From: an uncultured Gammaproteobacteria bacterium
GTDB taxonomy: Bacteria; Pseudomonadota; Gammaproteobacteria; Arenicellales; JAANXG01
Length of the DNA stretch: 64,000 nt
Assembly (NCBI GenBank): GCA_947258495.1
Contig: CAMYIN010000097.1
Coordinates: forward strand, 1-64,000
Reading direction: 5' to 3'
Positions within the stretch are counted from its first letter, which is position 1, and every line of letters starts with the position of its first letter. Positions 15,740 to 19,257 of the stretch are shown piece after piece. The notes under the pieces were generated by a model. That model searched no databases. It was given only the letters and a program-made list of their open reading frames with translations, and had not been told where the DNA came from. The translations under genes and the position numbers were made by a program.

Positions 15740-16720
15740 TCAATCTGTGACATTCCCGTAATGCAGCGCGCCAATCAGGCCGGGGTCCCTTTCGGTTATG
15801 GCGTCGCGGATGGCGGCGAGCGGCGCGCCGTCGTCGAAGCGAACAGCGTCCCGGGTCACCACCACCCCGAGTTGATTCCAGAGGCGGGCGAGATCCACCG
15901 ATTCGGCGGCGGCGCCCATGCGTTCGTAGAGGCGCGTCAGCGACGACGTCCCGGTTGCCTCATCCGCCATCGCAAGCAAAGGCGACAGCGAGTCCAATCG
16001 GTCGGTCATGTCCAGGCCCGCGGCAACGATTCCGCGCAGGGCGTGGCGCAGCGTCTTTCTGTTGGCGGTGGTCTTGCGCGTATCGATATCGGCGAGCAGG
16101 CAGAACAAGGCGCCGCCCCAATAGGTGCGGCCCCAGGTGGGTGTGAAATCCAGACCGCGGTCGCCGTCCTCAGGCAGGCCGTGGGGCATGCCCTGCACGA
16201 ATCCGCGCCACACCTGCTCGGGTGACAGGTCGCCCGCGTTGGCGCGGGCGACGGACTCGACGTATACAGCCAATCCCTCCTCCAGCCAGTGATGTCTGCG
16301 CGGCAGCGAGGGCAGGGCCAGGTGGATCATTTCGTGGACCAGCACCCAGTCCCGCTCCAGGTCGGCCGCTCCGGTCTCAGTCCCCAGAGTGATGTTGATC
16401 GTGGGTCCGTAGACCAAGGCTCCGCCGTGCTTCACCCCTCTCCCGGAAGCGGCGCGCATGGCGATATACGCTTGCTCGGTGGGGAAGCGGCCGTAATAAC
16501 CGCCCACCACTTCGGCGGAACGCCGTACCCAATCGAGGAGCGTGTCTTCGGACAGGCGGAAACCGGCATCGTCGACGACCACGTGCAGTCGGCTTTGTGC
16601 CACCTCGATGGTGACGGCCTGGCGGGCGTTCGCCGCGTGGGACGACGCGGCCGGGACCCAAACGAGGGCGATAAGGAACAGACGAATAGCGTCGCCGGGG
16701 CTGTTTCTGCAGTGCGTCAC
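15740..16720 (-). CDS. exported peptidase-MA-like zinc metallopeptidase
   Basis: HEMIH motif followed by WLEEGLAVYVES; likely GTG start inside the longer supplied ORF. Confidence 0.7.
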   Translation of the reverse strand: MTHCRNSPGDAIRLFLIALVWVPAASSHAANARQAVTIEVAQSRLHVVVDDAGFRLSEDTLLDWVRRSAEVVGGYYGRFPTEQAYIAMRAASGRGVKHGGALVYGPTINITLGTETGAADLERDWVLVHEMIHLALPSLPRRHHWLEEGLAVYVESVARANAGDLSPEQVWRGFVQGMPHGLPEDGDRGLDFTPTWGRTYWGGALFCLLADIDTRKTTANRKTLRHALRGIVAAGLDMTDRLDSLSPLLAMADEATGTSSLTRLYERMGAAAESVDLARLWNQLGVVVTRDAVRFDDGAPLAAIRDAITERDPGLIGALHYGNVTD

Positions 16721-16751: not shown

Positions 16752-18380
16752 TCAAATGCCCGCCGCGGAGCGGGATGCCGCGTCGCCCCTCGCCGCCAGT
16801 CTCTCGACCAGCTGCAGAAACTCCTGGAAATCGTCGACCACGATGTCGGACCTGTGCGGGTAGCGCACCGTGCCGGGAAAGATCTTGGCCAGCCACGCTT
16901 TGTCCCATTTGGCGCCGTTGTAAAACACGCTGGTGATTCCCGCGTTCTTCGCCGCCACGGTGTCGGTCGTGCTGTCCCCCACATACCAGCACGCGGCCCC
17001 TGCTTCGACTCCGAGGTTGTTGAGCGCCCTGAAGATGGGGTCGGGTTCCGGCTTTCTCCGCTCGGTATCGTCCCCCGCGACGATGGTGTCAAAAAGGTCG
17101 ACCCAGGTTCCGTGTTCCACTACCCGCAGTTCGCTCTCCAGAAACTCTCGATCCCGGTTGCTGAGGACGCCCGTCCTGATTCCGAGTTCCCTGAAGCGAC
17201 GAAGCATGGCGGGAATGCCGCGCTCAAGCGGTTCCACCGCGCCGAAATAACGGCGATAGCACCGGTTGAAGGCTTCGTGGGCGATCTGTTTCGCCTCGAG
17301 GTCGTCGCCGAACAGGATCTCGAATATGTCGGTTCGGGAGATCTTTCGTGCGGCTTTGATCTTCGGGTGCAGTTTGTAGTTGTCGCGGACGTATTCGACC
17401 AGTTTTCGGTCGTCCTCGTTTTTGCTTTGCTCGGGATCAATAAGGCGTTCAACGAGACCGAGCGATTCGAGTCCCACCAACATGTCGTCAACGGCGTGGT
17501 ACATGGCGTCGAGGGTGTCGACAAGGGTGGCGTGCCAATCGAACAGCACCACCGACGGTGCGACCAATTTGGCAATTTCGCGCTCTCTCTGCTTGTTCCA
17601 GCACTGCTGCACCAGGGTCAGGAGCTGCTGGAAGTCGTCCACCACGTAGTCTGGAAAATGTGGATGGTGCAGCGTATCGGGAAATATTCTGGCGATCCAA
17701 TCCAGCTCCCATTTCGCCCCGTTGTAAAAAATACTCGTGATTCCGGCGGACTTTGCCGACACGGTGTCCGTGGTGCTGTCGCCGACATACCAGATCTCCG
17801 CATGAGGGCGCAGGTCGGCGAGCTCCAGCGCTTTGTACACCGGTTCCGGCGACGGTTTCAGCTGCGCGGTATCGTCCCCGGCGACGATAACGTCGAACAG
17901 GTCCTTCCACCCACCCGGCTCGATTTCTTCCAGCTCCTGGAGCAGAAACTCGCGCGCTCGATTGGTCAGAACGCCGACTTTGATTCCCAACGCCTTCATT
18001 TGCTCGATAATCCGGCGGATTCCGGACTCAAAGGGCGTCACGTCGCTGTAGTGATTCCGGTAATGACGATTGAAGGCTTCGTGGGCGATCCGTTTGGCCT
18101 CTTCGTCTCGACCGAACAACACCTCGAGAAGGTCCGTGCGCGAAACCTTCTTTTCCGCCTTGAGCTTCGGGTGTAGCGCACGATGCTCACGGATGTAGGC
18201 GACCAGTCGGCGATCGTCCTCCGTTCTGCTTTGGTCCGGGGGAGTAAGCCGGTCGGTGAGGTCGAGGCGGTCGAGTTGTCGCAGCGTGTCTTCCATGGCG
18301 GCGTACATGGCCTCCATGGTGTCCGCGAGCGTGGCGTGCCAGTCGAACAGGACCAGAACCGGACGTGTTAAGCCGTACAT
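16752..18380 (-). CDS. tandemly duplicated HAD-superfamily hydrolase (two fused HAD units)
   Basis: Two homologous halves, each with LFDWHATL, (T/S)NR, conserved Lys and WYVGDSTTDTV; repeat unit 268 aa. Confidence 0.88.
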   Translation of the reverse strand: MYGLTRPVLVLFDWHATLADTMEAMYAAMEDTLRQLDRLDLTDRLTPPDQSRTEDDRRLVAYIREHRALHPKLKAEKKVSRTDLLEVLFGRDEEAKRIAHEAFNRHYRNHYSDVTPFESGIRRIIEQMKALGIKVGVLTNRAREFLLQELEEIEPGGWKDLFDVIVAGDDTAQLKPSPEPVYKALELADLRPHAEIWYVGDSTTDTVSAKSAGITSIFYNGAKWELDWIARIFPDTLHHPHFPDYVVDDFQQLLTLVQQCWNKQREREIAKLVAPSVVLFDWHATLVDTLDAMYHAVDDMLVGLESLGLVERLIDPEQSKNEDDRKLVEYVRDNYKLHPKIKAARKISRTDIFEILFGDDLEAKQIAHEAFNRCYRRYFGAVEPLERGIPAMLRRFRELGIRTGVLSNRDREFLESELRVVEHGTWVDLFDTIVAGDDTERRKPEPDPIFRALNNLGVEAGAACWYVGDSTTDTVAAKNAGITSVFYNGAKWDKAWLAKIFPGTVRYPHRSDIVVDDFQEFLQLVERLAARGDAASRSAAGI

Positions 18381-18774
18381 GACCTCGGCACCAGGTCGAT
18401 GGCACGATGCGAAACGTGGGTCCTCGCGCACACCGTGCGGTTGCCTGCCGTACGCAGAGTCTCAATACCCATGGATCTACCTCGGTAGCGGTTGACGGCG
18501 ACGGCCGGGCACGCGGTGCCGGCCTCGACCGGCCCGATGCGGTAGTCGGAGTGGTCGTCGGAATTTTCGCAAGAAGATACACAAAATCGGTGATGGTGAA
18601 CAATCCGTGTTCCGCAGCGCGAAATCGCTTGCGTAGGCGCACTGTCTGGCCGACAATTTCAGGAGTCGGAATGTGCAGCCGACGCAGGCAGTGGTCATGA
18701 GAGAGCACGAGCAGTCCGCATCGGCCTCGACCACAGGAACGTTCCAGGGTCCTCCTTGCACCGAGGGTCGCGTT

Positions 18775-19257
18775 ATGAGAACGAAGATCGCGCAGTGGGC
18801 ACGGCGCCTGAGTCAGGATCGCCGCCAGTATTTCGACGAAGACATCGATCCCGAGCTGTGGGACCTGCTGCAATCTTCGTCGCTGCTCGAAGTCAAGGAA
18901 TTCGATATCTTCGAGCTCGCCTACAAGGACTGGTTCGGGCACGCGCCCAAGCCGCACGTGAGCGAGGCCCATTTTTCCCGTTATATGTTCAACAAGAAGA
19001 TCCCGGTCTGGGTGCGCCGCTATTCGCGTAAGGTCGTGGAGTTGCATGAGCGGGGAGAGCTGAATCCCAGACAGCTCGGAGTCTACACTCGCCTGCCGAG
19101 CAAACGGTTGAAGCGCCTGGGCACGGTCTACACCATAGTATTGCTGGCCACCATGCTGTACCTGACCGTTGTCGCCTATCGGGATTACGATTACGTGCAA
19201 ACGGAGGTGCCGGTACAGAAGGCGCACGCGGGCCGGCAGAACATGACGACGCCTTAA
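18775..19257 (+). CDS. hypothetical protein with C-terminal transmembrane segment
   Basis: 160 aa from MRTKIAQWARRLS; hydrophobic segment TVYTIVLLATMLYLTVVAY. Confidence 0.65.
   Translation: MRTKIAQWARRLSQDRRQYFDEDIDPELWDLLQSSSLLEVKEFDIFELAYKDWFGHAPKPHVSEAHFSRYMFNKKIPVWVRRYSRKVVELHERGELNPRQLGVYTRLPSKRLKRLGTVYTIVLLATMLYLTVVAYRDYDYVQTEVPVQKAHAGRQNMTTP

Follow-up and report, generated by a model that had tools for sequence, protein, structure and literature searches.

A conserved tandem HAD-IA protein of Gammaproteobacteria with histidine in place of the second motif I aspartate in both units

The analyzed window, a 64,000-nt stretch of DNA from an uncultured gammaproteobacterium (assembly GCA_947258495.1, contig CAMYIN010000097.1), encodes a protein of two fused HAD-IA units, both of which carry His at the position of the second motif I Asp (Asp+2). 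This protein represents a subfamily that is real, conserved across numerous gammaproteobacteria of marine type, and undescribed in the sources available, as no description of the DWHAT motif or of tandem HAD domains was found in the open-access literature. The reading that we favor, with a probability of roughly 0.6, is that of an uncharacterized orthologous HAD-IA (C1-cap) subfamily, whose members would act as Mg2+-dependent small-molecule phosphohydrolases via an aspartyl-phosphate, with His as the acid/base and with the two units forming a covalent pseudo-dimer. The identity of Asp+2 usually separates HAD phosphatases from dehalogenases, phosphonatases and ATPases, and a widespread fixed His at this position provides a natural test of the acid/base groups possible in the HAD fold. 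Likewise, an ancient in-frame duplication that preserves both sites raises the question of whether HAD-IA dimers profit from covalent coupling. The presence of the gene in culturable species (Marinobacter, Hahella, Sedimenticola) permits direct knock-outs and assays.

The gene is located on the minus strand, in an ORF that spans positions 16752-18431 (559 aa with a GTG start at 18431); an ATG at 18380 gives a product of 542 aa (CDS 16752..18380, with full-length relatives in 79 of 80 loci) and is the likely start. The initial annotation had this ORF and its end coordinate right, leaving the strand unstated. Its description of one frame with two homologous HAD units also holds: the nucleophile Asp residues are residues 30 and 298 of the 559-aa ORF (a period of 268), and the two halves share 55.6% identity across 266 aligned residues, far above chance. 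The N-terminal unit occupies 17577..18380 and the C-terminal unit 16752..17576, both on the minus strand.

A profile search with each half alone, as proposed in the initial annotation, yielded a separate match to Pfam HAD_2 for each (E = 1.3e-27 for the N-half and 5.1e-24 for the C-half). For each of the 48 units scanned, the best curated models were phosphatase models, with PGP_bact foremost, and all scored below cut-off. Thus, PGP_bact (TIGR01449) gave 158.8 bits for both units together and 81.7 bits for one unit against a cut-off of 180, and the phosphonoacetaldehyde hydrolase model TIGR01422 gave 36–40 bits per unit against a cut-off of 220. No dedicated Pfam or NCBIfam model was found for the tandem protein, and no curated family cut-off was reached; automatic annotation may label the gene "phosphoglycolate phosphatase" or "HAD hydrolase", masking the difference. 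AlphaFold2 modeling with 34 homologues (mean pLDDT 92.1 and pTM 0.79 for the tandem protein; pLDDT 92.1 and pTM 0.86 for the C-half) confidently predicts two well-folded domains, both combining a Rossmannoid core with a helical C1 cap, while the mutual arrangement of the two units, taken from a single model with pTM 0.79, should be regarded as tentative. Foldseek comparison returned ordinary HAD-IA structures (2hsz, 3d6j, 3kzx, 2nyv, AlnB and NANP, with TM values of ~0.6–0.77 by target), the nearest folds being PGP-like and other HAD-IA phosphatases (2hsz, 3d6j, 2nyv), and no tandem HAD was recognizable among the matches listed.

Conservation of the catalytic residues was assessed in relatives obtained by scanning GTDB genome contigs with peptides that excluded motif I (153 relatives in all, 80 loci kept); the ORF filter required WH, MY and SRTD anywhere in the protein and was passed by all 80 loci, so that nothing was excluded by it. 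Motif I reads LFDWHATLADT in the N-unit (DWHAT at 18330..18344, minus strand, with Asp at 18342-18344 and His at 18336-18338) and LFDWHATLVDT in the C-unit (17526..17540, minus strand, Asp at 17538-17540 and His at 17532-17534). The D, W, H and T residues are invariant in 80/80 N-halves and D, W, H, A and T in 81/81 C-halves; in the whole-protein alignment, which includes the window protein, C-halves always have A as the fourth residue, whereas N-halves have either A or G. The second Asp of the DxDxT/V phosphatase motif is accordingly replaced by His in all 161 halves, and His occupies the same position in the single-unit relatives. Indeed, in a profile alignment to solved HADs this residue falls on the second Asp of phosphoglycolate phosphatase (FDLDGTLID) and on the Tyr of 3kzx (FDWYNTLIDT), which confirms the substitution reported in the initial annotation for both halves.

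The remaining motifs, all on the minus strand, are equally well preserved. Motif II is TNR in the N-unit (17958..17966, invariant in alignment A1) and SNR in the C-unit (17154..17162, NR invariant in the same alignment); the motif III Lys, in a KP pair, lies at 17856..17858 (K175 and P176 invariant) and 17052..17054 (K443 and P444 invariant); and motif IV, GDSTTD, contributes the predicted Mg2+-site acids at 17766..17783 in the N-unit (G200, D201 and D205 invariant) and lies at 16962..16979 in the C-unit (G468 and S470-D473 invariant, D469 at least 90%). The C1-type caps, with approximate limits of 18033..18323 (N-unit, an all-helical insert following motif I in the AlphaFold2 model) and 17229..17519 (C-unit, also from the model), share the signature LHPKxKxxxKxSRTD; S-R-T, H and Y are invariant. 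Across alignment A1, conservation of the catalytic positions is complete or at least 90% in both halves, and this covers the nucleophile, His, Thr of motif I, Asn-Arg of motif II, Lys and the acids of motif IV. Both halves therefore display the HAD-IA features, namely an Asp nucleophile with Thr, a motif II S/T, a motif III Lys and an acidic motif IV, together with a helical cap between motifs I and II on a Rossmannoid core (AlphaFold2, Foldseek), and the claim that each half keeps the nucleophile, (T/S)NR, Lys and GDSTTD is upheld by the sequence and the alignment alike.

Replacement of Asp+2 as such is already known in HADs, where this position is Ala in phosphonatase, Tyr in dehalogenases and Thr in P-type ATPases. 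Of the two possibilities raised in the initial annotation, a new subfamily is supported by a His that is invariant in tandem and single-unit proteins, whereas an unusual chemistry does not follow from the substitution, given these replacements in other HADs. Phosphatases of the HAD type use the first Asp of motif I as the nucleophile toward the phosphoryl group and the second as a general acid-base (PMC8069645). The tandem family keeps a predicted Mg2+-phosphoryl site, since the nucleophile, Thr, motif II and Lys vary little or not at all in either half, and the same holds for the two motif IV acids. Because everything else for Mg2+-assisted phosphoryl transfer is in place, a phosphohydrolase with His as its acid/base would be the likeliest activity. 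Under this mechanism, an aspartyl-phosphate would arise from attack of the motif I Asp on the phosphoryl group, and His would assume the general acid/base role of the second Asp; we infer this role, as a characterized precedent for His at Asp+2 was not found.

Among the closest known systems are the bacterial phosphoglycolate phosphatases (Gph/PGP; TIGR01449; 2nyv, 2hsz), which have the HAD-IA core, the order of motifs I–IV and the C1 helical cap in common with the window protein, provide the best curated-model match of the units and stand near the top of the fold matches; the window protein differs from them by His at Asp+2, a larger cap with the SRTD signature, two fused units and a score below the cut-off. 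A canonical FDLDGTL PGP-like gene is separately present in the same genome, and the tandem HAD is therefore not its only Gph-type enzyme. The best sequence match among solved structures, 3kzx of Ehrlichia chaffeensis (a structural-genomics entry with no function given), shares Trp at +1 and a non-acid at +2 (FDWYNTLIDT), but has Tyr rather than His, a single unit and a cap that is unalignable by sequence. L-2-haloacid dehalogenases, whose site is metal-independent, without the GDxxxD acids, and whose motif I is of the Tyr type, were considered and rejected: the GDSTTD acids are kept in the tandem family and the +2 residue is His, not Tyr. Retention of the metal-site acids makes dehalogenase chemistry unlikely.

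The single-unit homologs sought following the initial annotation do exist, with one DWH[AG]T unit each. Within the class, such proteins are 265–300 aa long (up to 344 aa with upstream starts) and 43–65% identical to the halves of the window protein by pattern and protein searches; single-unit DWHAT orthologues occur in families other than that of the window. Class and phylum pattern scans were the source of single-unit relatives; one hit (L099) was an unrelated protein and another (L116) had no motif-bearing ORF. A tree of 122 units separates the 54 N-halves from all other units by a single branch (support 94/87, recovered in 96% of bootstrap trees), and the single units group with the C-halves. 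As the N-halves constitute one clan, duplication and fusion look ancient and single, and the simplest reading of these sequences is one duplication and fusion in which the C-unit would be nearest the single-unit form; some lineages may have lost the N-unit. A single-unit DWHAT enzyme may thus have been duplicated and fused once, early, to give a covalently linked pseudo-dimer in which both active sites persist. Purifying selection maintains both halves, as judged by dN/dS values of ~0.01–0.15 in each for close pairs (some pairs being saturated at synonymous sites). Together with the invariant catalytic residues, from the nucleophile and Thr through motif II and Lys to the two motif IV acids, this sustains the earlier argument that the N-half is not a dead copy.

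Identity comparison and the tree agree that the N-unit diverges faster than the C-unit, and after the fusion it may have acquired a different or regulatory role. More tentatively than the phosphohydrolase reading itself, we consider a His-for-Asp HAD subfamily with two fused sites coupled allosterically or functionally, in which the C-unit would be the conserved hydrolase and the N-unit its diverged partner, acting on a substrate outside the range of known HADs. The faster divergence of the N-unit could also fit an altered or slow HAD, in which, with the acid/base gone, the aspartyl-phosphate would be trapped or turned over slowly, making the protein a phosphotransferase, a mutase or a phospho-sensor instead of a hydrolase, a situation comparable to that of P-type ATPases with their Thr at this position; Asp+2 is indeed missing from every member and a fused pair of sites could communicate, but His is itself capable of an acid/base role, and we regard this explanation as rather unlikely.

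A phosphonatase-like activity, i.e., cleavage of a P-C bond with Asp+2 dispensable and a Schiff base formed by a cap Lys, is suggested by Trp at +1 and a non-acid at +2, which resemble the DWAGT motif I of Bacillus cereus PhnX, and by sub-threshold matches to PhnX-like and phosphonatase models; PhnX is likewise a C1 HAD, with 1swv and 1rql among the fold matches. In addition, phnW and the tandem gene lie 3.4 kb apart in one genome of the same family (L142), separated by genes for an EamA-type permease and an aldehyde dehydrogenase. The TIGR01422 cut-off is nevertheless missed, and no cap Lys is invariant over all units: the best candidates, K67 and K91 (unit numbering), are nearly invariant only in C-halves and single units and are Lys in only part of the N-halves, where K67 is mostly Arg. 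Moreover, phnW over cut-off is absent from 6/6 genomes of the window's genus (the window's own being 74% complete), all of which have the HAD gene, and a relative (L164) retains phnW and the aldehyde dehydrogenase gene at the same locus with no HAD gene there. We therefore consider this activity improbable, and a link to the phosphonate pathway was rejected, since phnW is near the gene in one genome and yet does not co-occur with it.

Still less probable is a pseudo-enzyme working via protein binding. Such a loss of catalysis has a precedent in the gammaproteobacterial PA2803/PcrP subfamily (PSPTO_2114, 2ODA), which likewise deviates from the phosphatase motif and in which catalytic residues are lost and the cap is truncated (PMC12632274). 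Unlike PA2803, both halves of the tandem HAD keep all HAD catalytic residues other than Asp+2 and a large cap, which places the protein outside that subfamily; 2ODA is absent from the PDB matches listed.

An artefact of misassembly, frameshift or recent tandem duplication in one MAG has a negligible chance, for although the window comes from a fragmented assembly that is 74% complete, the halves are only 55.6% identical and the fusion recurs across genera, including complete genomes and isolates. Conservation of the fusion, which the initial annotation had left to be checked, is thereby established: 79 of the 80 fetched gammaproteobacterial loci have both units in one ORF with DWH[AG]T in each half, among them loci of Marinobacter, Sedimenticola, Hahella, Neptuniibacter, Pontibacterium, Amphritea, Oleiphilus, Bermanella, Exilibacterium, Motiliproteus and others, the exception (L031) having a broken frame. 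Frame breaks split the tandem gene in this MAG locus and in L094/L097 (G004), probably through sequencing or assembly error. In Marinobacter/Sedimenticola-type proteins (e.g., L010 and L056), the units are joined by a proline-rich linker containing a conserved IEPDWHPAV stretch; proteins of the window's family lack this linker.

The DWHAT family is discrete, patchy and confined to the class in the samples searched. The gene is found in 11 of 13 genomes of the window's family and is rare elsewhere in the order; in the class sample, 9/184 genomes match, and its discreteness follows from all of these matches lying at 3.4e-94 or better despite a limit of 1e-25. Among the 398 genomes of the phylum sample, matches were confined to members of the window's class. 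A search for viral copies found none, and the plasmid collection contained only generic Gph-like HADs of <60% identity.

Gene neighborhood was considered as a guide to the substrate and abandoned, the contexts being genus-specific: gene order is not kept outside the window's family, and lineages have no neighbor in common. Recurrent neighbors that do not hold across lineages include a photolyase/cryptochrome-like gene in Marinobacter, dusA-tal in Neptuniibacter, folA (see below) and glnK-amtB near two single-unit genes. In the window's family, the tandem gene is flanked by a divergent small uncharacterized gene (18673-19257, plus strand; no Pfam hit, homologues in L005-L009 and L142), whose placement is kept throughout the family and not outside it. 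On the other flank are a putative peptidase-like gene and then msrB, while the side opposite these two carries zapE (AFG1 ATPase), an RraA-like gene and a dihydrolipoamide-dehydrogenase-like gene. The gene downstream of the HAD gene (15740-16720, minus strand; position kept in the genus) encodes a putative metallopeptidase-like protein (HEMIHLALP ... HHWLEEGLAVYVE) with no Pfam match. In one genus, phnW and an aldehyde dehydrogenase gene adjoin the HAD locus (L142 7674-13419; L164 3939-11662), accompanied by an EamA permease gene in the former and by a PiT-type transporter gene in the latter, where the HAD gene is missing. Two genomes of one family (L126 6478-7781; L127 3472-4775) show a 4-nt overlap between folA and a single-unit DWHAT gene, and folA lies 1.6 kb from such a gene in another family (L128 6517-9674), a proximity that offers a weak lead toward pteridine or folate phosphates.
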